IMG/VR virus record: IMGVR_UViG_3300036770_000043
Location: 1-27,636 of that record
DNA from: a virus
DNA: 27,636 nt
Reading direction: 5' to 3' (one strand)
Shown here one piece after another: positions 1,001-19,461 of the stretch. A program made the translations under genes and the position numbers. How positions within the stretch are numbered: position 1 is the first letter of the stretch; each line of letters starts with the position of its first letter. The notes beneath the pieces were generated by a model. The model was not told the DNA's origin. It saw only the letters and a program-made list of their open reading frames with translations, and ran no database searches.

Positions 1001-3109
1001 TCATCTCCTCCCATCAGCTCTGATATCGAGGCGCGGCGCACCAAGCTGCCATGCGGTGCCAATCTGGTCAGAGCTGATCTTAAATATCAACTGGCGACCC
1101 CGCGCTCTGGTGTAGATCTGACCAGTGAACTCTTCCGTGATGACATACGCACTGCCTTTGGCCACCGTAGCAGCTGCCGTATTGCCCGTACCAGAACCTG
1201 CGTTCTGCATCGGGAACAGAGTCATCGTTACCTTAGGTGCGTCACCATTCGGGGCGTTACTAGAGTTCTCAAACGTGATATCGGGGATGATCCGCCAGAC
1301 GTAGCCAAAGTTATGGCCGTCTTGGATATCGAACTCGGACGACGAGATATTGGCAGCGATAGCTACAGGAGTGCCTGTTTCGTTGTCATCAACGCCGTCT
1401 TCATGCTGAACCAGCAGGTTGTTATACGTCGCAGCAATCGGATACGGAAGCAAGCCAGAGTCCAGCCACGCTGACCGACCTAGAGTGCCGTAGTACCAGA
1501 TGTTCTCGATGTAGTTGTAGACGACATACCTATCGCTGGTCGTAGCGTTCTCAGAACAATAAAACCACCAGACTTCATTGAAGCCCTCGTTGGTTCCGCA
1601 ATAGACCTGTTGAGCTTGGTCCATGTTGAAGTCGGAGAACACATACCGCCGCAAGTCACAGTTAAGCGTTTGCACCCGGCCGTCATACTTGTAGAACTTG
1701 TCGATGCCCATCCAGTAGATAACACCGGACGCGATAGTCACCGCGTTCGGGCCCATGATCGAGATGTTGTCGCCTAGAAGCTGCACACCCCACACAAGCG
1801 GAGCACCCAAGTACTGCATCGAGTAAATGGCGGAGTCAGTGAAGACCGCGATTTCCTGACGGGTCTGCACCGCAGTGATTATCTCTGAGCCGTGCGATAG
1901 ACGCAGACTGCCAGCTTGGTTAGTAGCTTGAGGTGTCCAGACAAACGGATTTTCTTGGTCTGAAAACCGGATCAACATCGGATCAAGATAGGTAGAACCG
2001 TAGTCGTTGGTACCAAACACAATCACAAATCGCGAACTATCCGAGACGGTCAGGAAGTTCTGATACAACGGCGTATCAGCATCACCCAAGTCAAACAGGT
2101 CAATGCCTCGCGGCGACACATAGTTGATCCCTGAACCAGCCCCAGAAGTGGTGATAGGACTGCCACCCAGAGTTGTTGATACCTCGAACGTGTTAGCTGA
2201 AGCGTTAACAACGTAGTAGACCGTTCCTACGGTCAAACCTGTGGGAAGAGCACCCGTCGTGATGAAAGTGATTGCCGTGCCATCAGTGAACTCAAACCCT
2301 GTTGGCAGCGTAACTACGCCCGGAGTGGCAACGCTGATGGTTACTTGGATGGGCGCTGCGCCTACTTCAGCACTCCAGTAATAGATGCCACCACCACGCG
2401 GCCCGTAGAGCAGGTCCTGACCGAAGTTGATCTGATTCCACAGCTGTACTGCGTTAGGTGTCGTAGCGCCGATACCCCATGCGCCTGAACCCCAAGCACC
2501 CGCACCCCAGCCAGACAACGGGATCTGAACGGAACTGCCCGTATTCAGCTGGTACTGCGTAACTACAGTGCCGCCGCCTGGAGAGCCAGACACATCCGTG
2601 GCGTTTGCCGTTGCTGATACGGTGATGGTGTAAGTGTTGTTGCTGGTGACGACGACTTGAAACTCACCAGTCAAAACAGAGGCTGTGATGTTGCCTCCGA
2701 GACCTGTGATACCTGACCCGCTAAACGTCACAAAGTCGCCGCTACGGCACCCATGATCATTGTCCGTAACACTAATAGTTGAAGACCCATTCGTTGCAGT
2801 GAACGGGTTAGTCAGCGTAACAGTTGAACGAATCGGGGTAATGTCGTTGTACGCACTACCCTGAAGAATGTAGAACTTGAGGTTGGTGCCTACCCCAATA
2901 AGATTCAGGTTGGATAGCGTTGTCCAGTTCCACAGCGACCGACATACACCGAGGTATGTATTGGGCGAGAACTGCGTCCAACCACCAATCTTCTCCGGCG
3001 TGCCTTGACGGAAGCGCACCTTGTCGCACTCATACCAGCCACCTTCGGTGGTGTAGCGAGTGTTCTCACGGTTGACGCCAGGTTTGAAGATAGTCTTTTG
3101 AAGCGCCAT
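1001..3109 (-). CDS. Tail hub / packaged-DNA stabilisation-like protein
   Basis: This 702-residue protein begins MALQKTIFKPGVNRENTRY, followed by GGWYECDKVRFRQGTPEKIGGW. That N-terminus, and the later run ITAVQTRQEIAVFTDSAIY then YWMGIDKFYKYDGRVQTL, resemble phage tail hub proteins of the P22 gp10 / T7 gp12 type. Those close the head-tail channel and are largely beta-propeller. Two Ig-like, Ser/Thr/Gly-rich segments (about residues 95-190 and 245-335) seem inserted in the first half. The gene lies two bases after the endolysin stop and has only a weak ribosome binding site, so it is probably translated by coupling. The assignment to P22 gp10/T7 gp12 is inferred from position and general character, not from a catalytic motif. 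A different virion protein is possible. Confidence 0.6.
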   Translation of the reverse strand: MALQKTIFKPGVNRENTRYTTEGGWYECDKVRFRQGTPEKIGGWTQFSPNTYLGVCRSLWNWTTLSNLNLIGVGTNLKFYILQGSAYNDITPIRSTVTLTNPFTATNGSSTISVTDNDHGCRSGDFVTFSGSGITGLGGNITASVLTGEFQVVVTSNNTYTITVSATANATDVSGSPGGGTVVTQYQLNTGSSVQIPLSGWGAGAWGSGAWGIGATTPNAVQLWNQINFGQDLLYGPRGGGIYYWSAEVGAAPIQVTISVATPGVVTLPTGFEFTDGTAITFITTGALPTGLTVGTVYYVVNASANTFEVSTTLGGSPITTSGAGSGINYVSPRGIDLFDLGDADTPLYQNFLTVSDSSRFVIVFGTNDYGSTYLDPMLIRFSDQENPFVWTPQATNQAGSLRLSHGSEIITAVQTRQEIAVFTDSAIYSMQYLGAPLVWGVQLLGDNISIMGPNAVTIASGVIYWMGIDKFYKYDGRVQTLNCDLRRYVFSDFNMDQAQQVYCGTNEGFNEVWWFYCSENATTSDRYVVYNYIENIWYYGTLGRSAWLDSGLLPYPIAATYNNLLVQHEDGVDDNETGTPVAIAANISSSEFDIQDGHNFGYVWRIIPDITFENSSNAPNGDAPKVTMTLFPMQNAGSGTGNTAAATVAKGSAYVITEEFTGQIYTRARGRQLIFKISSDQIGTAWQLGAPRLDIRADGRR

Positions 3110-5997: not shown

Positions 5998-7896
5998 TTA
6001 AAGACCGCCGTGGGCGTTGGAACAAGCGCCTTGGGTATTTAAAGAGCTGGCTCGCGTTTGCAAGTCACCAAAATCTGTAGCGTTGCCAGCAGAGGCGATA
6101 GTAACGTAGTCAATTACGTTTGATGTACTCCCTCCGGCAAATAACCCTGTGACACTTGACGATGCTGACGAAAGAAAACTTCTTGCAACCGTTAGGTCAC
6201 CAAAATCAATCGCATTCCCAGCGGAGGCAATTGTTATGTAGTCAATAACATTGCTTGTTGACCCCGTATCTCCTCCCCCAAATAACCCTCTGGTTGGGGA
6301 AGAGCATGAAGCCGCCGTTCCTCTCGCAACCGTTAAATCACCAAAATCTGTAGCATTACCAGTTGATGCAATGGTGACGTAATTTACGACGTTGCTTGCC
6401 GCGCCACTTACATCTCCGCCGCCAAATATGCCTCGCGTCGTAGATGAACACGCAGCAACAAATTCTATTGCCACCAACAAATCACCAAAATCCGTGGCAT
6501 TTCCCACTGATGCAATAGTGACATAATCAATGGTGTTTACAGCCGATGTGGTTGCGCCACCACCAAATAAGCCCCTTGTTTCTGATGAACAAGCAGACAG
6601 CCCGTATCTGGTTTGCGTTAAATCACCAAAATCCGTCGCTTTACCAAAAGTTGAATAACCAACATATTCAATAACATTGGTGTCTCCAGAATTTGTTGTG
6701 CCACCACCAAACAACCCCCGCGTTGACGACGAGCATGCGCCAAGATACCTTGTAGCGACACCAAGGTCTCCAAATAACATTGCATTGCCAGTTGTAGCAA
6801 TGTTGACATATTGAATGGCAGTTTGAATAAACCCATTAGACCCTCCACCAAACAGCGCAATCTCGGAACTTGTCGGCGTGGGTTGAACTGCGGCTGTGGC
6901 TGATGAGCAGGCGGCCAAACCAAATCGAGCTACCGTTAAATCACCAAAGTCTGTAGCGTTACCCGTAGAAGCAATTGTGACGTAATCAATGACATTAGTC
7001 TCACTTCCTGATGATCCGCCACCAAAAAGCCCTCTAGTGTCAGAAGAACAACCCGCCGCGTATATTATTGATTGCGTTAAATCACCAAAATCTGTGGCAT
7101 TACCAACAGAAGCAAGTGTTATATAATCAATTATATTTGTATAACTTGAGGTAGATTCGCCGCCAGCAAAAAGCCCTCTTGTTGCAGAAGAGCAACTAGC
7201 AACTGCGGATCTTGCTAATGTCAAATCGCCAAAATCAGTAGCGTTTCCAGTTGAGGCAATCGTGACGTAGTCAATTACGTTTGATTGGACTGTTGAATAA
7301 CCACCACCAAATACCCCTCTTACATCTGACGCGCATCCTCCAGAACCAGAACGAGCTTGTGTCAAATCACCAAAATCTGTAGCGTTGCCTGTTGTGGCAA
7401 TGGTTATATAATCAATAACATTAGAGCTAGAACCGCTGTCTCCGCCAGCATAAATACCTCTTACATAGTTTGAACAAGCGGCAGGCGCAAATCGAGCTAC
7501 CGTTAAATCACCAAAGTCTGTGGCATTCCCGGACGTCGCTATTGTGACGTATTCCATTACATTAGATGGGCCTAGACCGCCGCCAAAGACACCTCTTACG
7601 TTAGACGAACATCCCGACAAGTATCTCTCCGCTATAGTTAAGTCACCAAAGTCCGTGGCGTTGCCTACGGTAGCAATTATGACTTTATCTATAACGTTGA
7701 CGTCCCCCCCAGACGTTCCACCCCCAAACAGCCCAATCGGCGCCGCATTCCCAGCAATCGGCCACAGCCCTTGCTTCAGCCAATAAGACACTTGGTCTAG
7801 CGTCCACACACCGGGGGCTGCACCGTCTTGATACGGGCCTTGGGGCGTCGGAGGAGTCTTGCGGATAAGGCCACCCGGCCAGTTTTGAATCGACAT
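5998..7896 (-). CDS. Kelch-like repeat protein C, 12 repeats, probable appendage/receptor-binding protein
   Basis: The 632-residue protein has a short N-terminal anchor (SIQNWPGGLIRKTPP, then GVWTLDQVSYWLKQGLWP) and twelve repeats of about 48 residues from residue 54 to the end. Each repeat follows RGLFGGG - variable loop - NVIDYVTIASTGNATDFGDL - variable - ACSS. The GG doublet, hydrophobic strand, FGDL and following Arg match a Kelch propeller blade. A proline/threonine linker (AAVQPTPTSSE, near 6861-6905) separates repeats 6 and 7, suggesting two six-bladed propellers. Unlike its two upstream paralogues it has no Fn3-like domain. The start ATG at 7894-7896 shares its A with the preceding TGA and has GGAGGA five bases upstream; a GTG at 7899 is too close to that site. 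It ends in NAHGGL, as its paralogues do with small changes. Receptor binding is inferred. Confidence 0.85.
   Translation of the reverse strand: MSIQNWPGGLIRKTPPTPQGPYQDGAAPGVWTLDQVSYWLKQGLWPIAGNAAPIGLFGGGTSGGDVNVIDKVIIATVGNATDFGDLTIAERYLSGCSSNVRGVFGGGLGPSNVMEYVTIATSGNATDFGDLTVARFAPAACSNYVRGIYAGGDSGSSSNVIDYITIATTGNATDFGDLTQARSGSGGCASDVRGVFGGGYSTVQSNVIDYVTIASTGNATDFGDLTLARSAVASCSSATRGLFAGGESTSSYTNIIDYITLASVGNATDFGDLTQSIIYAAGCSSDTRGLFGGGSSGSETNVIDYVTIASTGNATDFGDLTVARFGLAACSSATAAVQPTPTSSEIALFGGGSNGFIQTAIQYVNIATTGNAMLFGDLGVATRYLGACSSSTRGLFGGGTTNSGDTNVIEYVGYSTFGKATDFGDLTQTRYGLSACSSETRGLFGGGATTSAVNTIDYVTIASVGNATDFGDLLVAIEFVAACSSTTRGIFGGGDVSGAASNVVNYVTIASTGNATDFGDLTVARGTAASCSSPTRGLFGGGDTGSTSNVIDYITIASAGNAIDFGDLTVARSFLSSASSSVTGLFAGGSTSNVIDYVTIASAGNATDFGDLQTRASSLNTQGACSNAHGGL
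6001..7737 (-). repeat. Twelve tandem repeats of about 145 bp in Kelch-like gene C
   Basis: Twelve diverged direct repeats encode the blades. The best-conserved DNA is the block for GNATDFGDLT (plus strand like aaatcaccaaaatctgtagc), while the block after GGG varies in length and sequence. Unit length varies from about 43 to 58 codons because of loop differences. The array is visibly more AT-rich than the anchor region at 7740-7896. Confidence 0.9.
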
Positions 7897-9122
7897 CACA
7901 GTCCTCCGTGGGCGTTAGAGCAACCCGCTAAAGCATATCGTCCAACAGACAAGTCGCCAAAATCCGTAGCATTACCGGTAGTGGCGATAGTCACATAGTT
8001 GATAGTATTGTTTTCCCCGGTGCCCCCGCAAAAAACACCTCTTAATGAGCTAGAAGTTGCCGCTATAAGCCTTTGGGAATACAAAAGATCGCCAAAGTCA
8101 ATTGCATTGCCTGTTGAAGCAATAGTGACGTAACCAATTATATTTAAATTCCCATCAACGTCGTTGTTGCCCGCAGCAAACAACCCTCTCGTAGAAGAAG
8201 AACACCCAGCTAATCCATATGTAATTTGAGTTAAATCACCAAAGTCTGCTGCATTTCCTGTTGAGCTAATAGTTATGTACTCAATGGTGTTTAATCTTAC
8301 AGAGGTAAATCCACCAGCAAATAAACCTCTTGTTGACGAAGCACAAGCACCGGCTTGGTCTAGGTTATTGCTTAAACTGCCAAAACTGGTCGCGTTTCCG
8401 GTAGAGGCAATGGTTACATATTGTATGCTGGATGTACGCCCACCAGCCGTTTCACCCCCTGCCGAAACGCCTCTTGTTTGATTAGAGCATCCAGTAAGGT
8501 AGGCAATACCCGTATACCCGCCAACATTTAACAAATCACCAAAATCTGTGGCATTGCCTATTGAGGTAATTGTTACATAGTCAATGACGTTGGTTCTAGA
8601 AGCCGCTTCACCACCTGCCCAAACCCCTCTGGTGGACGAAGAGTATGCAGATACCCCAAATCTAGCAATAGTCAAATCGCCAAAATCAACTGCATTACCA
8701 GCAGAAGCTATATTTATGTAGTCTATGACATTTACTTGGCCTGAAGCCCCATATCCTCCACCAAATAGACCTCTTTGCAACTGCTCCGGTGTCACACTCC
8801 CACTAGTACCGGCTGGGCCATACTGCACGCCATTGGTGGCCTGCACATTGAAAGTGTAAGCGGTACCGTTCGTCAGGCCAGTGACCGTAAGCGGTGATGA
8901 GGCCCCAGTAGCCGTAAACCCGCCCGGAGATGATGTGGCTAGATAACCGGTGATCCCCGGAGGCACCCCTGTGAATGTTGGGGCAGTGAACGTAATGGTT
9001 GCCTGTGCGTCACCCGCAGTAGCAGACACACTAGTAGGAGCACCGGGTCCTTGAGGCCAATTCTGCGCAGCATAAGCCTGCAACTGCGACACAAGGTTCC
9101 ATACACCGGAGTAGCTGGGCAT
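7896..9122 (-). CDS. Kelch-like repeat protein B, Fn3-like domain plus 6 repeats
   Basis: I chose the ATG at 9120-9122 (protein MPSYSGVWNLVSQ), because GGAGGA lies eight bases upstream and the longer open frame would run through the previous gene. The 408-residue protein has an N-terminal GVWNL...NWP motif, shared in kind with paralogue C (GVWTL...LWP). An Fn3-like domain follows at about 27-112 (APTSVSATAGDAQATITFT, then LTVTGLTNGTAYTFNVQA), and then six Kelch-like repeats from residue 117. Two repeats lack the usual Cys (SAYSSST and AATSSSL). Fn3-like domains in phage virion proteins are known as carbohydrate or cell-surface adhesion modules. The six blades fit one closed propeller. The protein probably forms part of a tail appendage; this is inferred from architecture and position. 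Confidence 0.87.
   Translation of the reverse strand: MPSYSGVWNLVSQLQAYAAQNWPQGPGAPTSVSATAGDAQATITFTAPTFTGVPPGITGYLATSSPGGFTATGASSPLTVTGLTNGTAYTFNVQATNGVQYGPAGTSGSVTPEQLQRGLFGGGYGASGQVNVIDYINIASAGNAVDFGDLTIARFGVSAYSSSTRGVWAGGEAASRTNVIDYVTITSIGNATDFGDLLNVGGYTGIAYLTGCSNQTRGVSAGGETAGGRTSSIQYVTIASTGNATSFGSLSNNLDQAGACASSTRGLFAGGFTSVRLNTIEYITISSTGNAADFGDLTQITYGLAGCSSSTRGLFAAGNNDVDGNLNIIGYVTIASTGNAIDFGDLLYSQRLIAATSSSLRGVFCGGTGENNTINYVTIATTGNATDFGDLSVGRYALAGCSNAHGGL
7899..8774 (-). repeat. Six tandem Kelch-like repeats in gene B
   Basis: Six diverged direct repeats of roughly 43 to 53 codons follow the same pattern as in genes A and C. Repeat 2 has a longer variable segment (LLNVGGYTGIAYLTGC) and repeat 3 a diverged FGSL in place of FGDL. 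Confidence 0.9.
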
Positions 9123-9124
9123 GA

Positions 9125-10324
9125 TCAGAGTCCTCCGTGGGCTGATGAACAACCGGCCTGATAGAAGTCTGCTTGAATCAAATCGCCAAAGTCTATCGCA
9201 TTTCCCGTAGTAGCAATAGTGACGTACTGGATTGTGTTGTTTGGCGTAAAAGACACATGCCCGCCACCCCAAACTCCGCGAGTTGACGAAGAACAAGCAG
9301 CCGAAAGAGTAACCGCAACAACCAAATCACCAAAATCTATGGCGTTGCCTGTGGTGGCAATAGTTATATAGTCGATGACATTGATATTACCGTTGCCTCC
9401 ACCAAACAAACCCCTTGTAGGGGATGAACATCCCGATAAATAATACCTTGCTACAGTTAAATCGCCAAAATTTGTTGCGTTGCCGGTTGTAGCAATCGTA
9501 ACGTATCCAATCGTGCTGAGAGCTACCCCACCAGAAGTAATACCCCCTCCAAAAATGCCTCTTGTAGAAGAAGAACACGCTGCTAAATAAGCAGGCGTAA
9601 CTGTTAAATCTCCAAAGTATGTAGCATTCCCGGTGGTAGCAATGGTGACGTATTGAATAACATTCAACGGCGGGTCAGCCAAACCCGTAGTGTACCCGCC
9701 AGCAATTAACCCTCTGGTTTCGTTAGAGCAGCCTGCGGGGGCTAAAGATGGAGTAGGCATATCCCCAAAATCAGTGGCGTTGCCGGTGGTGGCAATTGTG
9801 ACGTAATCAATGGTATTTACAGGATCAGATGTATAGCCACCACCAAACAAGCCTCTTGTTGAAGAAGAACACGCAGAAAGTCCATACCTCGATTGAGTCA
9901 AATCACCGAAGTCTAAAGAGTTGCCTGTAGTAGCAATGTTGATGTATTGAATAGTATTACTCGCGCCGCCACTAACACCACCACCAAACAAACCCCGCGC
10001 CAAAGCAGGCGTCACACTCCCACTTGCTGCGCTGTAAGGACTCGGGCCATAAGAGTTCAACGCCCACACCGTGAAGGTGTAGGACGTACCGTTAGTCAGG
10101 CCGGTGACAGTGACAGGGGAGGAAGCCGCAGTCCCAGTGATCTGTCCGGGGTTTGAGACGGCGTAGTAGGCAGTGATAGCCGACCCACCCGTATTAGAGG
10201 GCGCTGTGAAAGCTACAGAGGCTTGCGTATCCCCACCGGTAGCCGTACCGATAGTAGGCGCGTCAGCAACCTTTAGCGGGTCATAGAAGGCCGAGATAAA
10301 CCCAGCAGGCGGACGAAGCGGCAT
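9125..10324 (-). CDS. Kelch-like repeat protein A, Fn3-like domain plus 6 repeats
   Basis: The 399-residue protein is the first of three tandem paralogues. The N-terminus is MPLRPPAGFISAFYDPL. An Fn3-like domain spans about residues 21-107 (APTIGTATGGDTQASVAFT ... VTVTGLTNGTSYTFTVWA ... SGSVTP), closely similar to that of paralogue B. Six Kelch-like repeats follow from residue 110, each with GG, N-x-I-x-Y, TIATTGNA and FGDL, and all six keep the Cys in the C-S-S/N segment. The protein ends SSAHGGL, and the two GGA glycine codons form the ribosome binding site for gene B. AGGGGGG precedes the ATG. The likely role is a virion appendage or receptor-binding protein, inferred from the adhesion-type domain, propeller repeats and neighbourhood of small tail proteins. 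Confidence 0.87.
   Translation of the reverse strand: MPLRPPAGFISAFYDPLKVADAPTIGTATGGDTQASVAFTAPSNTGGSAITAYYAVSNPGQITGTAASSPVTVTGLTNGTSYTFTVWALNSYGPSPYSAASGSVTPALARGLFGGGVSGGASNTIQYINIATTGNSLDFGDLTQSRYGLSACSSSTRGLFGGGYTSDPVNTIDYVTIATTGNATDFGDMPTPSLAPAGCSNETRGLIAGGYTTGLADPPLNVIQYVTIATTGNATYFGDLTVTPAYLAACSSSTRGIFGGGITSGGVALSTIGYVTIATTGNATNFGDLTVARYYLSGCSSPTRGLFGGGNGNINVIDYITIATTGNAIDFGDLVVAVTLSAACSSSTRGVWGGGHVSFTPNNTIQYVTIATTGNAIDFGDLIQADFYQAGCSSAHGGL
9128..9997 (-). repeat. Six tandem Kelch-like repeats in gene A
   Basis: Six diverged direct repeats of about 45 to 50 codons. Compared with genes B and C, nearly all copies use ATTGN (IATTGN) rather than ASTGN or ASVGN, so repeats are more alike within this gene than between genes at this position. 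Confidence 0.88.
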
Positions 10325-10723: not shown

Positions 10724-11323
10724 TTAAATGGCAAAGATGAGATCAAACGCGATTGACTTGCCAGCTGTAATCCCACTTGTGCTCGGGATCGGCGATGAGA
10801 CCCAGTTGGTTCCGTCTGATGTCAGCACGTTACCATTTGTCCCAGGCAACGACAGTCCAGTACCGCCGTTGGCTGGAGGCAAAACCCCCGTCACATCAGT
10901 GGTCAGACTAATGGGGTTGCTGACAATTTTTACAAAGTCTGAGCCATTCCAGGCTACCAAAGCCCTTGTAGCCGCCGGTATCACCACCCCAGTCGTAGGG
11001 CCAGAGCCAACGATCTGAACACCATATCCACCAGTAGTGGAGTTGATGATGATGTAAGCCTTGGACTGCGCAGGAGCCGTGATAGTCCGTTGTGCAGTAC
11101 GCGCGCCGGTACACAGAATGATTGCTTGGCGGGCTTGGTTGGACGCACCGTTAGTAGTGCTCAACGTCACGTCTAAATCAGTACTAAGCGTTGTAGTGCC
11201 AGCTACAGCTGAATCCAGCAGCGTTGTGATCGAGTCGTTTACCGTCACGCCCCAAGTGCCGGTCAGATCCCCGGTGGTAGGGAGGGCAAGCCCAAGTAAA
11301 GAGGTAAAGTTGGTGACTGCCAT
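10724..11323 (-). CDS. Tail fibre-like structural protein (199 aa)
   Basis: The protein starts MAVTNFTSLLGLALPTTGDLTGTWGVTVNDSI. The GTWG-x-x-VN-x-SI pattern is common at the N-terminus of phage tail-fibre-type proteins. Near the C-terminus it has PPANGGTGLSLPGTNGNVLT followed by SDGTNWVS, a glycine-rich fibre motif often seen where phage fibres bind other parts. It ends GKSIAFDLIFAI. AAGGAG is seven bases upstream of the start. No enzymatic motif is present. A virion appendage role is likely from these motifs and the neighbouring genes. Confidence 0.75.
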   Translation of the reverse strand: MAVTNFTSLLGLALPTTGDLTGTWGVTVNDSITTLLDSAVAGTTTLSTDLDVTLSTTNGASNQARQAIILCTGARTAQRTITAPAQSKAYIIINSTTGGYGVQIVGSGPTTGVVIPAATRALVAWNGSDFVKIVSNPISLTTDVTGVLPPANGGTGLSLPGTNGNVLTSDGTNWVSSPIPSTSGITAGKSIAFDLIFAI

Positions 11324-11332
11324 GTTCTCTCC

Positions 11333-11677
11333 TTACAGCCCGTACACAATGTCCATCGCAAAAGCGACTGGCCGGGTAACAGACGGCGTAGCTGGATAGG
11401 TCACAAAGACATCCTTTGTGCCCGCGCTGAAACTCACCAAAGATCCAGAATTGGACGACGACAGCACAGTGTCACGCGACAGCGTGGTGCCAGAAGAAGT
11501 GTAGGTTCCAATACCCACTTCCCACTCATTACCGCCGGCTATCGTGTAGTACGTGGTGTTGCCGTTGCCAATCGCAGAGAACGATTGAAAGCCAGAGGCG
11601 GCACCCAAAAGAGTCGCGGTACCGGTTCCAACAACGGTGGTCGTTTCCTTAACTCTGTCTTTAACAACTAAAGGCAT
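11333..11677 (-). CDS. Small tail/virion structural protein (114 aa)
   Basis: The protein begins MPLVVKDRVKETTTVVGTGT and contains GFQSFSAIGNGNTTYYTI, then GNEWEVGIGTYT and LSRDTVLSSSNSGSL. I recognise this string of motifs as a widespread small phage structural family without a named function. It is a beta-rich, Ser/Thr/Gly-rich protein with no Cys. GAGGT lies about five bases before the ATG. The C-terminus PVAFAMDIVYGL resembles the end of the adjacent 199-residue fibre-like protein (SIAFDLIFAI), which may reflect a shared attachment or assembly segment. Confidence 0.75.
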   Translation of the reverse strand: MPLVVKDRVKETTTVVGTGTATLLGAASGFQSFSAIGNGNTTYYTIAGGNEWEVGIGTYTSSGTTLSRDTVLSSSNSGSLVSFSAGTKDVFVTYPATPSVTRPVAFAMDIVYGL

Positions 11678-11698: not shown

Positions 11699-12475
11699 TT
11701 AGTTGCTAGTCCTGATATTTGACCACACCGTACTCTGGCTGTCGTTAATGATTTCCCAGAGATACCGGCCAAGTATGCTATCTGCCGCTACAGCGGTTGC
11801 TGGGGCTGTGCAAACAAACACAGCTCTGGCGGATGACTGATCAATGCCAGAACTCTGCTCCAATACGGTTACGGCAAAATCAACCAGCGTTGATGTCTGA
11901 TCACTGATACTTGAGCTCTCAACAACGGAGTTCTGCAGCACAACCAAAGACGTAGCTTGATCAGTACCAGACGCAAGTTCTGCCACCGAGACAACAAAGT
12001 TCATGGACCCGCTGGCTACATCAAGCGCCTGTGACAGCTCGTTAATCACGCCAGACATAACAGCAGATGCAGAAGTTTGATCAAGGGCGGTGGATGCATC
12101 GCTAGCCAAACAAGCAAATGCCACAGTGGTAGAAGAAACATCAGTGGCGCTAGATGCCTCTACTACTGAGTCTGCAAAATCCAAACCGCTACTTGTCTGC
12201 TCCGAGCCTGTAGCTGCTTCCTGTATGACGCCTACAAACACCAGCAACGATGAGACTTCGTCCGCACCAGATGCAGCCTCCAACACTGACCCAGGCAGTA
12301 TGCGAAGGGCTGATACTTGATCTACCGCTGATGCTGATTCACTGGCTAATGACGCAAAAACAGCAGCTGCAAGAGCCTGATCAACAGCTGATGCAGCTTC
12401 AATGATAGATGCTTGGTACGTCGCCCCCGCTAGGGAGGAGAAAGGCGCTCCGGCAAAGGTAGCGTACCCAAACAT
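11699..12475 (-). CDS. Virion-region protein of ten exact 20-residue repeats
   Basis: The 258-residue protein has an N-terminal cap (MFGYATFAGAPFSSLAGATY), ten repeats of exactly 20 residues (residues 23-222), and a C-terminal cap with DSILGRYLWEIINDSQSTVW. The repeat consensus is about SVVEASSAxDQTSxxxVFxx. An acidic residue stands at repeat position 4 and at position 10 in all ten copies, and lysine and arginine are almost absent from the array. The fixed length with no insertion suggests a solenoid or regularly stacked structure. No catalytic motif is seen. The start overlaps nothing and has only a weak AAGG in front. From its neighbours I infer a tail or fibre component; the exact role is unknown. 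Confidence 0.78.
   Translation of the reverse strand: MFGYATFAGAPFSSLAGATYQASIIEAASAVDQALAAAVFASLASESASAVDQVSALRILPGSVLEAASGADEVSSLLVFVGVIQEAATGSEQTSSGLDFADSVVEASSATDVSSTTVAFACLASDASTALDQTSASAVMSGVINELSQALDVASGSMNFVVSVAELASGTDQATSLVVLQNSVVESSSISDQTSTLVDFAVTVLEQSSGIDQSSARAVFVCTAPATAVAADSILGRYLWEIINDSQSTVWSNIRTSN
11810..12409 (-). repeat. Ten 60-bp coding repeats (20-residue units)
   Basis: The ten units keep strict 20-codon spacing, e.g. SIIEAASAVDQ, SVLEAASGADE, SVVEASSATDV, SVVESSSISDQ and TVLEQSSGIDQ. DNA identity between units is low, so the array is old or under selection for structure rather than recently expanded. Confidence 0.85.
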
Positions 12476-12477
12476 TT

Positions 12478-12657
12478 TTAAGCCTTGGTCAGCTCAGCTT
12501 CATTGAACCAACGCTCTTGTACAACGCCGTTCGCATCAGTCCATTCCAGCTTGCAATAGACGGTACCATCTTCATCCATGCGAAAAGCCTGCACAGGGCC
12601 TTGAGGTACAACAGTCTTAACCTTAACTACATCGCCCTTCTTAAACTTAGCAGCCAT
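12478..12657 (-). CDS. Small conserved-type phage protein, SH3-like (59 aa)
   Basis: A 59-residue frame begins with ATG at 12655-12657, with AAGGAG seven bases upstream, and ends in TAA at 12478-12480. The protein is MAAKFKKGDVVKVKTVVPQG, then PVQAFRMDEDGTVYCKLEW, then TDANGVVQERWFNEAELTKA. KKGDVVKVK, the EW strand and RWF-x-EAEL suggest a small SH3/KOW-like beta barrel. It is a credible gene because it fills the 180 bases between two structural genes with good spacing on both sides. Function is unknown; such barrels often mediate binding within virions. Confidence 0.8.
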   Translation of the reverse strand: MAAKFKKGDVVKVKTVVPQGPVQAFRMDEDGTVYCKLEWTDANGVVQERWFNEAELTKA

Positions 12658-12667
12658 GATTCACTCC

Positions 12668-13258
12668 TTACGCAGCGTCGAGGCTGAACTGATAGGTGAC
12701 ATTCAGCGTATCGCCACTTACCACTGCACGATCACCCGGAGATTGAAAGTCCGAAGCCGAGAACAGAATGCCCGAGGTACCAGAAGCCGCACTAGCCAAG
12801 AAAGCACCAGCGATCGTAACCGTGCCGGTCATGTTGAACTGAGCCGGCGAACCAGAGTTGTCAATAACAGATGGGTCAGCCGTAGTTGCCGTACCAAACG
12901 TAACTGCCTTACGGTTGCCGCTGTAGTCAGTGTTTTCAGTCCAGCCGCCCGCGCCAGTAGCGCCGTGCGAGGCAAGCGTGTCACTAGCCGAGATAGTGGT
13001 ATCCACCGCAGGCCCAGTGATCAGACCAAGATACCAAGCAGCCGTGTAAGACGAACCGGCGAAATACTTGGTGTTCATGTCCTGAAGACCGACGTTCACG
13101 ACAAGGTTATGAGCCTTGTCTTCCCACTTCAGGTTGCCGTCCTTGTCAAAGCACTGAATGGTGAAGATCCCGCCGCCATGAACACCGTTCACAGCAGCGC
13201 CACCCACCTCGATAGAGGCTTTGGCCGAGTCACCGGCACTAGCGATGTTGTTAAGCAT
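12668..13258 (-). CDS. Conserved-type tail/virion protein (196 aa)
   Basis: The protein contains GGIFTIQCFDKDGNLKWED, then KAHNLVVNVGLQDMNTKYF, then GSSYTAAWYLGLITGP. I recognise this set as a recurring structural family in uncultured phage genomes, with no biochemical function that I know. The second half is beta-rich (NMTGTVTIAGAFLASAASGT, SGDTLNVTYQFSLDAA). No signal peptide or membrane segment is seen. AAGGAG lies six bases before the ATG. The gene sits between the adaptor/neck genes and the repeat-bearing tail genes, fitting a tail or decoration component. Confidence 0.72.
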   Translation of the reverse strand: MLNNIASAGDSAKASIEVGGAAVNGVHGGGIFTIQCFDKDGNLKWEDKAHNLVVNVGLQDMNTKYFAGSSYTAAWYLGLITGPAVDTTISASDTLASHGATGAGGWTENTDYSGNRKAVTFGTATTADPSVIDNSGSPAQFNMTGTVTIAGAFLASAASGTSGILFSASDFQSPGDRAVVSGDTLNVTYQFSLDAA

Positions 13259-13268
13259 CTCAAACTCC

Positions 13269-13694
13269 TTAAGTTAAACGAATGAGCGCCGAAGTGCTCG
13301 TAGCTGGCGGAAACTCCACTAGGAAAGTGGCTGTGGAAGTCTTGTCATTCCCAAAGTCCAGTACACAAACAGCCGGGTTTGTAGTCCCGTTGAACTTGTA
13401 GATCAGGGCCCCACGAGCCGTGATAGCCCCAGTCCACGATGCGTCACTAAAATCTACGTACGCAGTACCACTTAATGACGCGAGTGCTGGGGTGATTGTA
13501 GCCCCACCTGCAACATAGCTACCTCCACTTGCTTCATTGGTGGCGGTATACGACGTAGTCTGTGCATCTAAAGAGGCAGCGTTCGTATATAGGGCAATCT
13601 TGTACACGTCAGCTGTGCCAGACCCAAAATCAAACGTGCCATCAAACAGCCCCTGTTTGAAGCTGTCGCAGGTGTAGTTTCCAGTAAACGGCAT
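13269..13694 (-). CDS. Small virion structural protein (141 aa)
   Basis: I chose the ATG at 13692-13694 (protein MPFTGNYTCDSFKQGLFDG), one base after the adaptor stop (TGAGATG), with GGTGG upstream. The longer frame to 13826 lies wholly inside the adaptor gene. The protein continues with FGSGTADVYKIALYTNAASLD and ends VEFPPATSTSALIRL, a beta-rich, Thr/Ser-rich sequence. NYTCDSFKQGL...DVYKIALYT is, from memory, a recurrent start of small phage structural proteins. No catalytic motif is visible. It is probably a tail or neck accessory protein. Confidence 0.72.
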   Translation of the reverse strand: MPFTGNYTCDSFKQGLFDGTFDFGSGTADVYKIALYTNAASLDAQTTSYTATNEASGGSYVAGGATITPALASLSGTAYVDFSDASWTGAITARGALIYKFNGTTNPAVCVLDFGNDKTSTATFLVEFPPATSTSALIRLT

Positions 13695-13695
13695 C

Positions 13696-14397
13696 TCACA
13701 CCACCGGCTGACGATACTGGCCAGAACGATAAGCATCCTGGCGCTCCATGCCATCACCAAGACGCTTGGCAAGACCAAGAGCTTCTTTGTACTTGGACTC
13801 ATAGAACGCCATGACGTCGTTCTCACCCTTCATGTATGTGTAGGCTTCTACAAGAGAGCCATACAAGAGAACCGAGTCAAAGTTGTCTCCAAGCCACGTA
13901 TTAGTAGCCGTGACAATCGACTCCGGGTAATAGTAGTAATGCAACTCAACCGAATACGCCGCGTCCGGTGTAGGACCAAGAATGAACGTCAGCTCATTAG
14001 TGATGACCGGCGTAGGATCATTGGTCGTCGTGGGACCAAACAGCGCGTAGTACTTGGGAAGCGCGATATCCGTAGGTGATGGATACGCAGCACGGATGTA
14101 GTTCACATCCTTGTTCAGCAGGTACTCGTACTCACCACCGTCAATCACCGCCATCGAGTACACAGCCAAGAAGTCCGCCGGGGCAGACAAATACTTGTTG
14201 TTAGCCGTCGTAATGCCTGTGACGTTCTTACGCAAAGACGGGAACTGCACCGTGTTGTAGATGCGCTGCTCCGCTTGCTGAATGAAGCGGTTGAGCTGTT
14301 CAGTCGTAGTGTCCGAGCTCGCATCGGCGAGCGTGAACGCCGGAAAGTTATTTTCCGTGTACGACTGAATAGCATCTACAAGCTGCGTGTAGTTCAC
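13696..14397 (-). CDS. Head-tail adaptor protein (SU10-adaptor-like)
   Basis: The 233-residue protein has features of phage adaptor proteins that dock under the portal: helical N-terminus with FIQQAEQRIYNTVQFPSLRK, then NKYLSAPADFLAVYSMAVID, GGEYEYLLNKDVNYIRAAYP, and a C-terminal helical part around YGSLVEAYTYMKGENDVMAFY. This combination resembles the adaptor family known from podovirus SU10. The start is GTG at 14395-14397, overlapping the previous stop as GTGA, with GGGGA upstream. The assignment is by motif memory and by position after the head genes. A general neck or tail-completion protein is the alternative. Confidence 0.72.
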   Translation of the reverse strand: MNYTQLVDAIQSYTENNFPAFTLADASSDTTTEQLNRFIQQAEQRIYNTVQFPSLRKNVTGITTANNKYLSAPADFLAVYSMAVIDGGEYEYLLNKDVNYIRAAYPSPTDIALPKYYALFGPTTTNDPTPVITNELTFILGPTPDAAYSVELHYYYYPESIVTATNTWLGDNFDSVLLYGSLVEAYTYMKGENDVMAFYESKYKEALGLAKRLGDGMERQDAYRSGQYRQPVV

Positions 14398-14684
14398 GCC
14401 ATCGGTCCCCGTGCCATCGTGCCCTTGGTAGCAGCACCAGTACCACGAATCTTGATGCCGTCAGTCTTAACGTCATCACGGTTCGGATCGCCAACGCTAA
14501 CGCGCATCGCCGGAGTCGAAGGACGCACAGACTGCGAACGCATACGGTTCGGGTCCTCGTTGGTCGAGATGGCACGCTTCATGTCTTGAGTGCTCATGGT
14601 TTTTCCTTTCATGTCGTGAGGCGTGGCATAGACCTCCGCCGATCCGACCTCTTTACCCATGACCTTCTTGGAATACTTAGCCAC
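14394..14684 (-). CDS. Small basic phage protein (96 aa)
   Basis: The likely start is the GTG at 14682-14684, giving (M)AKYSKKVMGKEVGSAEVYA. It overlaps the preceding 59-residue gene by eight bases; the ATG at 14744 would lie inside that gene. The protein is rich in Lys, Arg, Thr and Met (KGKTMSTQDMKRAISTNEDP, then GIKIRGTGAATKGTMARGP). It has no predicted folded core, Cys or membrane segment. It belongs to the run of short basic proteins in this region. A disordered virion-associated or DNA-contacting role is possible but not shown. Start confidence is moderate, since the GGAAGAC upstream is weak. Confidence 0.6.
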   Translation of the reverse strand: MAKYSKKVMGKEVGSAEVYATPHDMKGKTMSTQDMKRAISTNEDPNRMRSQSVRPSTPAMRVSVGDPNRDDVKTDGIKIRGTGAATKGTMARGPMA

Positions 14685-14856
14685 GGCCAGTCTTCCGGTA
14701 GGTGAACGACGAGACCTTCTGGTTGGCGACCTTAGCCAGGCCACGACCCAGACGCTTCATCTCTTCGTTGGTCTTGCCACCCTTACGCAGCTTGGTCAGC
14801 GGCTTGCCGGGGTGCATGGCCTTCTCATGCTTATGTACTGCCTTCTTTGCGTCCAT
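14677..14856 (-). CDS. Very small basic phage protein (59 aa)
   Basis: A 59-residue frame has ATG at 14854-14856 with AAGGAG upstream, partly overlapping the previous stop codon (TAAGGAG), and ends in TAA at 14677-14679. The protein begins MDAKKAVHKHEKAMHPGKPL, continues TKLRKGGKTNEEMKRLGRG, then LAKVANQKVSSFTYRKTGRG. About a third of its residues are Lys, Arg or His. The excellent ribosome binding site and the fit between neighbours make it a real gene. RKGGKTNEEMKRLGRGLAK suggests a short amphipathic helix. The function is unknown; its basic charge would suit nucleic-acid contact. Confidence 0.78.
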   Translation of the reverse strand: MDAKKAVHKHEKAMHPGKPLTKLRKGGKTNEEMKRLGRGLAKVANQKVSSFTYRKTGRG

Positions 14857-14866
14857 GTCCTACTCC

Positions 14867-15295
14867 TTAAGTAGTAACCACCGTAACGGTGCCCAACTGA
14901 ATACTCAAAGCTAGATTGTTGGGCGTTAGCCCGGCGTCTTGAGCTCTTGCTCCACCTACAGGAGCCCAGCCCCACTGAATAATCCGACTACCAGCTTCAG
15001 GTGTACCAAGCGCATTTTGAGCCGTTGTGTTGGTATCCACAACCTGCAAACCACTAGTACCTGAAACTCTATAACTCACATCCGGCCGGGGCTCTCGAAC
15101 TGCCTGAGGGTCATCCACCGGATACATACCCAACTGCAACTGCGGATGATCAGGGTCCCAACACGTCGGACAGACCTTAATCTTGTACGGCTTCGTCTTA
15201 ACGATCTGAATCTTCAGATCCTTAAGCTTGTAGCGTTGGGCACAGCGATCACATTCCGCAATCGCATATTTGCCAGACGCAAACCTATTAGGCAT
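14867..15295 (-). CDS. Zinc-ribbon structural protein in the neck region (142 aa)
   Basis: The protein begins MPNRFASGKYAIAECDRCAQ, with CDRC near residues 15-18 and CPTC near 42-45 (KVCPTCWDPDHPQLQLG). The two CxxC pairs, about 25 residues apart, form a plausible treble-clef or ribbon zinc site. The rest is polar and beta-type, ending SIQLGTVTVVTT. The start overlaps the end of the connector gene by eight bases. Zinc-ribbon proteins with this start are, from memory, frequent beside neck genes in uncultured phages, suggesting a structural rather than regulatory role, but DNA binding cannot be excluded. Confidence 0.72.
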   Translation of the reverse strand: MPNRFASGKYAIAECDRCAQRYKLKDLKIQIVKTKPYKIKVCPTCWDPDHPQLQLGMYPVDDPQAVREPRPDVSYRVSGTSGLQVVDTNTTAQNALGTPEAGSRIIQWGWAPVGGARAQDAGLTPNNLALSIQLGTVTVVTT

Positions 15296-16223
15296 AGAAC
15301 ATGTTCCTCGGCACGAACCGCAGAGGAGACGTATCCCGGTCCTCCGCAGAAGCCATGTCCCACTGTTGTTCGTACTCCGCCTTCAACGCTTGAATGCGCA
15401 TCGGGTCTACTTCCTGCAGCTTCATGCTGAGCTGAAACGCCAAACCAGCCACCATGCAGGGGATAAACCGGAACGGGATGTCTTGCACCGACGTACCTGT
15501 GCCAGCGTCTTGAATGCGGCGCATGCGGTAATACACAAACATGTACTGATCGCCCGGTGCATTCGGCGTAGGCCATACGTTGATACACGGAAGGTTTTGC
15601 ACAGTCAGGGCCGCACCGTTGCTATGAGCAGCAGCCGTAGTGTTGTTCTGGCCACGGGCGCAGTTCAGCAGCTGATTGGTGACCGGGTTGACGTTCGGAT
15701 AGCTAATAGTCTCAGAACCGATCTTCACAAACCCAGACGTAGTCAGGTTGTCCACTGACGATACGGTGATGGTCGTGTCCGTAGCGGAGATGCCACCCAC
15801 CTGGTTGATTGTTACAGTCGATGCGTTCTCTTGCCCCGACTGACGGTTGAACCACACCTGAATAGGACGACCCTGGGCCAGCTTGTTCGGTAGGCTCATG
15901 TAGGTCGGTTCAGCGATACGGCTGATGTTGATGTCGATCTGATTCGACGTGGCATTGTTCTGCCGAATCACCGCATCAAGGATGTCGATCGTATCTACCG
16001 GCACTGGATAGATAGCTTGTCCAGTCACCATTGGGATCTGATTCTGCTCGACGGTCCAGAAGTTCAAGCCACGGTTAGCCCACTCGATGGTGAGCAGATT
16101 GAGGCTGCGTCGCGCAGTACGGAAGTCGTAACCGGTCCTCAGCTCCTTGCCGCAACGCTCAAACGCCTCCTCAATGAGGTCGTTCATGTCCAGATTGAAA
16201 GCTGTAGTTCCGGTGGTGCTCAT
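15288..16223 (-). CDS. Head-tail connector / neck protein with Ig-like insertion
   Basis: The 311-residue protein has a helical N-terminal part typical of phage connectors: LDMNDLIEEAFERCGKELR, then FRTARRSLNLLTIEWANRGLN, then IYPVPVDTIDILDAVIRQN. A beta-rich insertion follows at about 135-205 (STVTINQVGGISATDTTITV ... FVKIGSETISYPNV). The C-terminal part returns to the connector pattern (INVWPTPNA, YMFVYYRMRRIQDAG, FIPCMVAGLAFQLSMKL). Such proteins form a ring below the portal, comparable to P22 gp4 or T7 gp11. The start overlaps the preceding stop as ATGA. Whether this or the 233-residue adaptor binds the portal first cannot be said from sequence. Confidence 0.75.
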   Translation of the reverse strand: MSTTGTTAFNLDMNDLIEEAFERCGKELRTGYDFRTARRSLNLLTIEWANRGLNFWTVEQNQIPMVTGQAIYPVPVDTIDILDAVIRQNNATSNQIDINISRIAEPTYMSLPNKLAQGRPIQVWFNRQSGQENASTVTINQVGGISATDTTITVSSVDNLTTSGFVKIGSETISYPNVNPVTNQLLNCARGQNNTTAAAHSNGAALTVQNLPCINVWPTPNAPGDQYMFVYYRMRRIQDAGTGTSVQDIPFRFIPCMVAGLAFQLSMKLQEVDPMRIQALKAEYEQQWDMASAEDRDTSPLRFVPRNMFYA

Positions 16224-16477
16224 TTGCCTACTTTCCTATGCGGAGCCACTTTACGAGCCACGCTCTTAGGCTGTTGTACAAACTGCTTTCCGGCTGCTTT
16301 ACCGGCTCGCTTTGCACGGGTTGTGGCGGCGTACTCGGCGGGGCTGAGGGCGCGGATTGCGGCTTCGGGGAGGTATCTTTCACCTGTTGCTTTGGGGCCT
16401 TGCGTTGACGGTTTGCCACTCTTAGTCCTCCATTTCTGGGCAGTCCAAGCTTTTAGACTGCGTTGGGGGGCTTTCAC
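16220..16477 (-). CDS. Basic phage protein of SLKAWT...GERYLP type (85 aa)
   Basis: The start is GTG at 16475-16477, overlapping the previous stop as GTGA. The protein contains SLKAWTAQKWRTKSGKPSTQ, then GPKATGERYLPEAAIRALSP, then EYAATTRAKRAGKAAGKQFV and a basic tail. I recognise this as a small family recurring in aquatic phages, without a known function. It is very basic, with no Cys or membrane segment. It ends four bases into the connector gene (ATGA). The middle GERYLPEAAI-x-x-LS-x-x-EYA is probably a short helical core with disordered basic ends. Confidence 0.75.
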   Translation of the reverse strand: MKAPQRSLKAWTAQKWRTKSGKPSTQGPKATGERYLPEAAIRALSPAEYAATTRAKRAGKAAGKQFVQQPKSVARKVAPHRKVGK

Positions 16478-16650
16478 TTACCAAGCTTCCGTAGGGTTTG
16501 AGCCAAACGAGCACGTTGGCCGGTCTTGCCGGGTGCTTTAGCAGCCTTCGCCAGCTTACCTGCCGGGATCTTCTGGCCTTCCTTAACGCCCATCGACTTA
16601 CGCAGCGCGCCGGGCTTCTTGATAGCTTTCTGAATCCACTTCTCAGCCAT
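16474..16650 (-). CDS. Very small basic phage protein (58 aa)
   Basis: A 58-residue frame begins with ATG at 16648-16650, with AAGGA about seven bases upstream, and ends TGA at 16474-16476. The protein is MAEKWIQKAIKKPGALRKSM, then GVKEGQKIPAGKLAKAAKAP, then GKTGQRARLAQTLRKLGK. IQKAIKKPGALRK-x-x-G and RARLAQTLRK are familiar from many phage genomes as a small uncharacterised family. It likely forms two basic helices. It overlaps the next gene by four bases. It is one of the clearest genes among the short frames because family motif, ribosome binding site and spacing agree. Confidence 0.85.
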   Translation of the reverse strand: MAEKWIQKAIKKPGALRKSMGVKEGQKIPAGKLAKAAKAPGKTGQRARLAQTLRKLGK

Positions 16651-16652
16651 GA

Positions 16653-16931
16653 TTAGTCCTTGTACCCGCCGCCACGCTTCTTATATTGCATGGCCAGCAT
16701 CTGTGCCTTGCGGGCGCTCCACTGACCCGGAGCCCCGCCCTTGCCGCCAGCCTTGATACGGTTGAACAGCGACTTGCGCATGCCCGGCTTGGTGTAATTA
16801 CCAGCCTCGTTCACACGGCTAACTCCACCTTTGGAATACTCAGTGAAGTCCGTGTCGTCACGGCGAGCTTTCTTCTCACCCCCCGGCATCTTGGAGGGAC
16901 TGATACAGCCCATGCCGCGACTGGCTCTCAT
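16653..16931 (-). CDS. Basic phage protein of MRASRGMG...NRIKAGGKGG type (92 aa)
   Basis: The protein begins MRASRGMGCISPSKMPGG, has VNEAGNYTKPGMRKSLFNRI at about 44-63, and ends in KAGGKGGAPGQWSARKAQML and a glycine-rich tail. The NYTKP-x-MRK-x-LFN-x-IKAGGKGG-x-PGQWSARKAQ core is, to my recollection, very conserved in small proteins of uncultured phages; its function is unknown to me. The start overlaps the previous stop as ATGA. Glycine/lysine-rich segments suggest flexible, positively charged arms. A virion or DNA-contacting role is inferred only from charge and location between capsid and neck genes. Confidence 0.8.
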   Translation of the reverse strand: MRASRGMGCISPSKMPGGEKKARRDDTDFTEYSKGGVSRVNEAGNYTKPGMRKSLFNRIKAGGKGGAPGQWSARKAQMLAMQYKKRGGGYKD

Positions 16932-17224
16932 ACCATCTTGCCTCTGGTCTTGCCACGAATAGCACAGCCATCAGCACGCTTGGAAGCCGAGCTCACCTTG
17001 CCGCCCTTCTTCATGCCGTCTGGTTTCTTTTTAGGGGCCATAATTTTAGGAGCAATCTTCATGGGGCCCATGCTCTTGTCATCCTGCTTCTTGTCTGCCT
17101 CTTGCATACGGCTATCCATGCGATCTTTGTAAGCCTGCGAGATGGGATCAAGCATGCCGGGCAACGGCTCAGTCACGTCGCGGGACATATCCCGCATTTC
17201 GCGCTTGGTCGGCTTGTTGTCCAT
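16928..17224 (-). CDS. Small basic protein with C-terminal ADGCAIRGKTRG motif (98 aa)
   Basis: I chose the ATG at 17222-17224 (MDNKPTKREMRDMSRDVTEP), two bases after the previous stop, with AAGGGGTG upstream. The alternative ATG four codons earlier lies within the preceding gene. The N-terminal half is mixed-charge helix (EPLPGMLDPISQAYKDRMDSR). The middle is Lys/Met/Pro-rich, and the end reads MKKGGKVSSASKRADGC, then AIRGKTRGKMV. The upstream neighbour carries a related MKRGG...ADGIAKKGKTRG segment, so the two share a terminal module. The function is unknown. The repeated basic module in adjacent genes may bind a common partner, such as DNA or capsid. Confidence 0.78.
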   Translation of the reverse strand: MDNKPTKREMRDMSRDVTEPLPGMLDPISQAYKDRMDSRMQEADKKQDDKSMGPMKIAPKIMAPKKKPDGMKKGGKVSSASKRADGCAIRGKTRGKMV

Positions 17225-17226
17225 GA

Positions 17227-17601
17227 TTACTTGCACCCCTTGCGCATGCCGCCCTTGGCCATCTTGACTTCCATGCCACGGGTCTTGCCCTTCTTGGCGA
17301 TGCCATCAGCAGCCTTGTGACCAGCAGCCAGGCCACCAGTAGCGCAACGCTTGGTTGCACCACCGCGCTTCATGCCCTTCATCTCGGCTTCTTCGTGCTT
17401 GACCATAGCCTTCGGAGCCTTCTTGGCCTTCATGAAAGCCAGTTCCTTGCCAATCATCTTCTTCGATTCTTTCATTTCACCACCTCCTGCCTTAGTAAAT
17501 TCACGGCCCACGGACTGTGGGACACCCACTTTCTTAGCGAACTTGGGATTGTTCGCCACCGCCTGCATGAACCGTTCTTGCTTTGCTGACTTGGCAGGCA
17601 T
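17227..17601 (-). CDS. Basic protein with PAKSxxQ N-terminus and GKTRG module (124 aa)
   Basis: The protein begins MPAKSAKQERFMQAVANNPK, then FAKKVGVPQSVGREFTKA. The PAKS-x-x-Q-x-R-x-M-x-A-V start resembles the small uncharacterised family known as DUF3008-like. A Lys/Glu-rich helix (ESKKMIGKELAFMKAKKAP) follows, then MKRGGATKRCATGGLAAG and ADGIAKKGKTRG. The protein is strongly basic and low in complexity. The upstream ribosome binding site is weak (AAGAAGAA). It lies among other small basic genes between capsid and neck genes. The function is unknown; the two-part structure suggests a folded N-terminal hook and a flexible basic tail. Confidence 0.78.
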   Translation of the reverse strand: MPAKSAKQERFMQAVANNPKFAKKVGVPQSVGREFTKAGGGEMKESKKMIGKELAFMKAKKAPKAMVKHEEAEMKGMKRGGATKRCATGGLAAGHKAADGIAKKGKTRGMEVKMAKGGMRKGCK

Positions 17602-17603
17602 GA

Positions 17604-17849
17604 TCAGTTCTTCTTGGCCAACTGGTCAATCTTGGTTTCAAGACGCTGGATGCCTTGATCAAGACGTTCCATAAGGCGCTCCATGTCACTCCGTACTTCT
17701 GCACGGGTGATGTGGTCACGAGCAACTTCTTCTCGTGTCTTGTTGAGCAGAATACCCAAACGGTCCAACTCATCAAATTTGCCTTTAAGCATGAACGCCA
17801 TAACGCCTACGAATGCTGTCAGCACAATGTTCCAAACCATCATTTCCAT
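17604..17849 (-). CDS. Small membrane-anchored coiled-coil protein (81 aa)
   Basis: The start ATG at 17847-17849 follows directly after the previous TAA (TAAATG). Residues 4-21 form a single hydrophobic helix (MVWNIVLTAFVGVMAFML) and the rest is charged helix with heptad-like spacing (FDELDRLGILLNKTREEVA, then MERLMERLDQGIQRLETKI). This one-TM plus coiled-coil layout resembles small phage membrane proteins, and it could in principle be spanin-like or holin-associated. However, it lies far from the lysis cassette and among structural genes. No lipobox or cysteine is present. I do not assign a function. Confidence 0.72.
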   Translation of the reverse strand: MEMMVWNIVLTAFVGVMAFMLKGKFDELDRLGILLNKTREEVARDHITRAEVRSDMERLMERLDQGIQRLETKIDQLAKKN

Positions 17850-18104
17850 TTAGCACTTCCATGCTCGTAAGGATTTGTTGATCCGGCTGTTCGGGTCATT
17901 CGCGGTCTTGGACGAAGTCAGCTTCTTCTTCATACCGGTCATACGGGCGCAGAATGACTTCTTGCGTGCTCCACCCTCTGGTTGCGGGGCCTTAAGCCCC
18001 GGCTTCCCCGGATTTGCCTTGTTGTAAGAGGCTCGACCCTTGGCGTTCAACCCACCCTTGGGGTTCTTGCCTTCCTTGCGTTGCCACGCAGGGGTCTTAG
18101 CCAT
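17850..18104 (-). CDS. Small basic phage protein, DUF6321-like (84 aa)
   Basis: I chose the ATG at 18102-18104 (MAKTPAWQRKEGKNPKGGLN), which has GGTGG upstream and overlaps the previous stop by eight bases. The protein contains GGLNAKGRASYNKANPGKPG, then ARKKSFCARMTGMKKKLTSS, then DPNSRINKSLRAWKC. GLNAKGR, KSFCARM-x-GMK and the terminal SLRxWxC match my memory of the DUF6321 family of phage proteins, whose function is unknown. Three features recur in that family and are intact here: the NAKGR block, one internal Cys and the C-terminal WKC. It is highly basic, like its neighbours. Confidence 0.82.
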   Translation of the reverse strand: MAKTPAWQRKEGKNPKGGLNAKGRASYNKANPGKPGLKAPQPEGGARKKSFCARMTGMKKKLTSSKTANDPNSRINKSLRAWKC

Positions 18105-19415: not shown

Positions 19416-19447
19416 ATACCACCCCCTTGGATGTAGTATGTGCCATA
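19408..19447 (-). promoter_or_regulatory. Inverted repeat spanning the homing endonuclease start
   Basis: Two 12-base arms, 19408-19419 and 19436-19447, match as an inverted repeat at 11 of 12 positions (TATGGCAxATAC), separated by 16 bases. In the mRNA the loop would hold the AGGGGGTG ribosome binding site and the second arm would contain the AUG of the endonuclease gene. It could therefore limit translation when folded, or act as a protein-binding site. This is inferred from base pairing alone. Confidence 0.5.
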
Positions 19448-19461
19448 TATTGAACAAAGAA

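Follow-up and report, generated by a model that had tools for sequence, protein, structure and literature searches.

The gene at 11699..12475 (minus strand) of the viral DNA analysed here (27,636 nucleotides in all, hereafter the window) encodes a protein in which ten units of exactly 20 residues, each with an acidic residue at positions 4 and 10, lie between short conserved caps. Across relatives from environmental phages the unit is conserved, the number of units changes, and the gene keeps its slot in the tail module, a slot that in other phages holds an array of a different repeat. The protein is probably a beta-rich shaft, capped and variable in length, belonging to or connected with the tail-fibre assembly of a short-tailed phage whose adaptor and nozzle are of the SU10 type.

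Architecture of the repeat-array protein

The ATG of the array gene lies at 12475 and its stop codon ends at 11699 (258 aa); all window features described below are also on the minus strand. The genes are closely packed, the ATG being 2 nt past the TAA of a 59-aa ORF (12478..12657, phrog_3261) located directly upstream. Residues 1-22 (12410..12475; MFGYATFAGAPFSSL..., MFGYATFAGAPFSSLAGATYQA) form an N-cap that is conserved among relatives, where it reads MFGxxxFAxxPFA or GWGxGxWGxxxWG. The ten units follow at residues 23-222 (11810..12409), and residues 223-242 (11750..11809; TAPATAVAADSILGRYLWEI) form a degenerate eleventh unit that has lost the position-4 acid and kept the position-10 Asp, D232, which is invariant in the family alignment. 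The C-cap (approximately residues 239-258, 11702..11761; LWEIINDSQSTVWSNI..., LWEIINDSQSTVWSNIRTSN) includes W240 and W251, also invariant in the family alignment, and a single copy of a WxxIxxxQxxxWxxI motif that is multiplied in many relatives.

The initial annotation had described ten insertion-free units with two fixed acidic positions, almost no basic residues and a period kept by protein structure; the repeat was confirmed, as was a constraint at the protein level. The acid at position 4 is Glu in nine of the ten units and Asp in the other, the acid at position 10 is Asp in nine and Glu in the other, and only two of the 200 array residues are basic, both of them Arg; the array is rich in Ala, Ser, Val and Thr, and the net charge of the entire 258-aa protein is -23. 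The two-column acidic score of the ten units (best two acidic columns, periods of 10-30 tried) was 2.0, the maximum, which none of 5,000 composition shuffles equalled (1.5 or lower in every case). Mean unit-to-unit identity was 34% for protein (range 15-60%) and 44% for DNA (33-57%), and this low DNA identity between units indicates that the period is held at the protein level.

Conservation and copy number in relatives

Searches of IMG/VR revealed array relatives on many environmental contigs. The window protein has the three elements of the 20-residue E4/D10 array family as defined here, namely N-cap, units and W-rich C-cap. In a MAFFT alignment of this protein and 37 relatives, acidic cells made up 98.0% of the position 4 columns and 94.9% of the position 10 columns, and basic residues 0-5% of any column. 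Since the unmasked unit profile itself rewards acids, acid percentages were also obtained with both columns masked in the profile (99.3% for position 4 and 96.7% for position 10). Unit spacing was exactly 20 in 694 of 709 spacings from 87 non-redundant proteins (spacings of 15 to 30 counted). The regular-expression definition of the array class also takes in a few acidic non-array ORFs (L114, L115 and L119), which an autocorrelation filter (>0.15) removed from the spacing and copy-number counts; synteny counts are unfiltered.

Copy number ranged from a few units to more than 30, and indels in the arrays were mostly whole units; array proteins could differ by 40 or 180 aa in length despite upstream DNA that was ~90% identical. 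Values of dN/dS among close relatives of one group (0.17-0.37) indicated that the array protein is under purifying selection. The array evolves faster than the genes around it: identity to the window was mostly about 25-37% for the array protein and roughly 45-80% for the conserved neighbours. The initial annotation had named homologues with variable unit length or without the acidic columns as the evidence that would count against it; both unit length and acidic columns persist in relatives with other copy numbers, and its description of the array thus stands. Some contigs (L235, L238, L267 and L269) carry two capped acidic arrays in one neighbourhood, and one of the array proteins of L238 reaches 1382 residues, its extended N-terminal region being rich in beta-structure and in glycine.

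The window protein had no match in Pfam or PHROGs at E 0.01 or better; its best Pfam match, PF08366 LLGL (E 0.026), was below its cut-off and was discarded. Over 38 family members only scattered Pfam and PHROG matches were obtained, phrog_12240 matching one member. A PDB sequence search, solved fibres included, gave no match for the window protein, and the family profile gave chance-level matches only, one of them to ribosomal uL18. Protein searches of a phage collection with three members returned no full-coverage relative and one partial match (22% identity), although the low-complexity filter of BLAST may conceal some relatives there, and no array relative came from two tblastn scans over 84,980 genomes of bacteria and archaea. 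The family, which is unnamed, is thus large among IMG/VR phages and so far known only from environmental viruses, with next to no representation in Pfam, PHROGs, the PDB or cultured phages.

Genomic context of the array gene

Upstream of the array gene, the window encodes a protein possibly acting as a tail or fibre adaptor (12668..13258, phrog_8123), a phrog_644 protein (13269..13757; PHROG E 5e-16), an SU10-type tail adaptor (13696..14397; PF24175 E 2e-24, SU10 adaptor chain 7z47 E 0.0019) and a second SU10-adaptor-like protein (15288..16223; PF24175 E 9e-9). Of the 65 non-redundant loci having upstream sequence, 51 carried the adaptor, 52 the phrog_644 gene and 53 the phrog_8123 gene upstream of the array. 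The AlphaFold2 model of the phrog_8123 protein (pLDDT 79) aligned in VIA with the HFTV1 tail (Z 8.8) and with 8jou_a (Z 7.9 over 117 residues), a chain of the phage GP4 entry titled “Fiber I and fiber-tail-adaptor”, and also with the neck/connector proteins of Sf14 (Z 6.2) and Bas63 (Z 6.1); these Z-scores are middling, and the structural matches were treated as a hint.

On the downstream side, the neighbouring ORF (11333..11677) recurs in relatives of the array locus (65 loci). The next one (10724..11323) has a weak tail-fibre match (phrog_12796 tail fiber, E 0.0011), and 42 of 52 loci with acidic arrays, as well as 20 of 21 loci with the alternative array described below, have a homologue of it on the downstream side of the array. 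The motif GKSIAxxxIFxx is common to the C-termini of proteins of this 10724-11323 type in the window and in 14 related loci. Three kelch-like proteins follow (5998..10324; phrog_19111), adjacent paralogues with repeats like NVIDYVTIASTGNATDFGDLTVAR and, in two of them, fibronectin type III (fn3) domains; the three proteins are candidate adhesin heads. The tail nozzle protein is encoded at 1001..3109 (phrog_3287 E 2e-61; nozzle 8zkm_E of release VP1, E 6e-7). In SU10 the adaptor is gp11, the long-fibre proteins are gp12 and gp13, the short-fibre protein is gp16 and the nozzle is gp17 (PMC9509320). The array gene, lying in the tail module between the adaptor and nozzle genes, thus occupies the position of an SU10-type tail-fibre gene.

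The strongly basic proteins mentioned in the initial annotation are indeed present: a cluster of small ORFs at 14394-18134, flanked by the coat gene and the last adaptor-like gene, includes several with net charges of +11 to +22, and several relatives have homologues of the cluster upstream of their arrays. The window also encodes a GIY-YIG endonuclease-like ORF (18825-19457; PF01541 E 5e-6) and, at 320-946, an ORF that has by eye the look of an HNH-type homing endonuclease, without a Pfam match.

A different repeat in the same slot

In phage DSL-LC04 (OR003939) the slot of the array gene is taken by a protein annotated as “hypothetical protein” (L118:1150-2277), which has the same N- and C-cap motifs and matches the family profile (E 1e-9) within the C-cap. 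Its array is a different, 22-residue repeat (VNVTGVQATGQVGTVTV...; unit VTGVxATGxVGTVTV..., hereafter VTGV), and the protein had no Pfam or PHROG match. Many more VTGV arrays were obtained by a further IMG/VR search (L121-L200). Among clearly periodic array ORFs, the period was 20 in all 175 acidic arrays and 22 in all 73 VTGV arrays, and the two were never found together in one ORF or fetched locus. VTGV arrays were downstream of the adaptor and phrog_644 genes in 21 of 25 loci.

The two classes share cap motifs (the N-cap is conserved in the VTGV class as well), slot and tandem units of similar length; they differ in that the VTGV unit has 22 residues, is glycine-rich and has no fixed acidic column, whereas the acidic unit has 20 residues. 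The slot thus needs caps and an array, but not the acids, and the same caps and slot holding a different array is as expected of a spacer. The two array types may have arisen by cassette exchange or may have diverged from one ancestral array.

Unit anatomy and predicted fold

The unit consensus is S-V-x-E-T-A-T-G-A-D-x-V-S-A-x-A-x-F-x-x. Even positions of the unit were better conserved than odd ones (mean entropy of 1.78 and 2.77 bits respectively; Mann-Whitney p 0.007), the conserved even positions being V2, E4, A6, G8, D10, V12, A14 and F18. Every second residue of an extended strand points the same way; from their every-other-residue register, the acids E4 and D10 would therefore lie on the conserved face, whether this is a core, a turn or a subunit contact, rather than on the variable one. 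They are more likely to be packed, turn-forming or ion-binding than to form an exposed stripe, as far as can be judged from this pattern.

AlphaFold2, run on the monomer with the family alignment, gave a model of low confidence (pLDDT 53, pTM 0.43) with two 7-residue strands per unit (approximately positions 20-6 and 10-16) and two 3-residue turns, and the sequence register and the modelled secondary structure concur on two 7-residue strands per unit. CsgA curli (8c50) came first when this low-confidence model was compared by VIA-align (Z 20.3, rmsd 8.3, 5% identity); other beta-helices scored Z 13-15, so that the 8c50 match speaks for a fold class at most. Foldseek of the model against the PDB gave nothing below E 0.03, and its matches in BFVD were mostly uncharacterised proteins from uncultured phages. 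AlphaFold2 has been documented to predict beta-solenoids with confidence, stacked and uncompensated internal charges included, from repeats of random sequence, 20-residue units included (PMC11795689), and because of this bias the modelled fold and the 8c50 match lend a beta-solenoid little weight. With low confidence, the array may be described as a regular beta-rich rod, and its fold may be that of a trimeric beta-fibre.

Fusions to head domains

Receptor-binding-type heads are joined to the acidic array in two relatives; in the window, the kelch-like proteins are separate genes. In one ORF (L098, 1858-3468) the fusion partner is a kelch-like domain that shares 41-43% identity with the separate kelch proteins of the window (E about 1e-43), and another (L089, 2612-4666) joins the array to an SBBP beta-propeller (PF06739 E 2e-10). 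In a third locus (L099) the array occurs with a glycine-rich domain (PF21722). For two loci of the VTGV class (L165 and L173), the cassette also includes an upstream ORF that PHROG profiles identify as a tail fibre (E 5e-34 and 1e-16 respectively). These fusions and cassette tail fibres are the best functional clues, and suggest that the array behaves as a stalk able to carry a binding head.

Proposed role and alternative explanations

In a fibre shaft of this kind, the number of 20-residue units would set the reach or the spacing, length changing by whole units, and the short aromatic/glycine-rich ends would probably anchor the shaft at either end. Each unit probably consists of two short beta-strands and two turns; the Asp of position 10 comes after a turn (T-G-A-D), and the Glu of position 4 belongs to the conserved alternation of residues. 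Both acids probably stabilise the stack, by hydrogen-bond or cation ladders or where subunits touch, and are less likely to present charge to a basic partner.

The same rod might instead be placed elsewhere on the virion, as a whisker, a fibre decorating the head or the neck. The array gene comes after the neck genes, placement between the adaptor and the fibre genes also fits a neck decoration, the phrog_8123 model is also like the neck/connector proteins cited above, and phage 7-7-1 has long flexible capsid fibres whose protein is unidentified (PMC12796354). The tail is favoured, however, by the beta-propeller-head fusions, by the cassettes that also contain tail-fibre ORFs and by the position between adaptor and nozzle, and the whisker is unlikely. 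A low-complexity linker that is flexible or disordered and has no regular fold would agree with the Ala/Ser/Val/Thr-rich composition, with the low AlphaFold2 confidence and with the documented solenoid artefact (PMC11795689), but linkers do not keep a register such as the one seen here, with a spacing of exactly 20 in 694 of 709 cases, the hydrophobic residues V2 and F18 fixed, and purifying selection; this explanation is very improbable.

Cation ladders are well known in repeat proteins, for example in RTX beta-rolls. They lend some plausibility to the idea, put forward in the initial annotation, of a solenoid or regular rod whose two parallel acidic stripes, taken here as exposed, might bind cations or a basic partner, for which the neighbouring cluster would be the source, as do acids that are 97-99% conserved in an array with almost no basic residues, and the basic ORFs nearby. 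A beta-rich rod remains the natural reading of the (low-confidence) model, and this part of the idea was retained. The stripes fared worse, and a basic partner for them was abandoned: E4 and D10 share the conserved register, VTGV arrays occupy the slot without any fixed acid, and no basic partner was identified. Exposed stripes are accordingly quite improbable, although cation binding could still hold for a buried ladder of acids. A more specific version of the tail-fibre shaft would combine constant end caps with whole repeat cassettes (20-residue acidic or 22-residue VTGV) that are swapped and with a tuned copy number, the buried Glu/Asp ladders of the acidic rod binding cations and making fibre stiffness ion-dependent; taken as a whole, this combination is unlikely.

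Significance and comparison with known systems

The acidic unit is common in environmental phages, yet missing from the family libraries searched. Constant caps, two repeat types and length shifts by whole units provide a natural set for relating fibre length and shaft chemistry to adsorption. The array, with highly conserved acids in an almost base-free context, also lends itself to testing whether cations or turns stabilise beta-fibres, and to testing structure predictors, which are known to fail on repeats of this sort.

Among known systems, the closest in gene order is SU10 (Kuravirus): gp12/gp13 and the array gene both lie between adaptor and nozzle, and the adaptor and nozzle proteins are related. 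No sequence similarity was found between gp12/gp13 and the array protein, however, and gp12 is much longer (786 aa), docks by a coiled coil and has no reported 20-residue acidic array; a coiled-coil fibre-docking N-terminus like that of gp12 was not recognised in the array protein.

CsgA (8c50) and beta-solenoids share two strands per unit with the array model, which is of low confidence. The curlin repeat signature consists of conserved Ser, Gln, Gly and Asn; the Gln/Asn/Gly signature is absent from the array, whose SVxETATGADxVSAxAxFxx unit is without a Gln/Asn ladder and gave no Pfam match. The RTX calcium beta-roll was rejected, as the array lacks tandem GGxGxDxUx nonapeptides and has a period of 20 with one G-x-D-x-V per unit.

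The adenovirus fibre shaft is a triple beta-spiral built of tandem repeats. Like it and like T4 gp34, a triple beta-helix fibre shaft (PMC5537660), the array would be an elongated beta-rich shaft, but with another repeat length and other motifs. Repeat-built viral fibre shafts are already known; none of the libraries searched contains the acidic unit, the caps or the alternative array.
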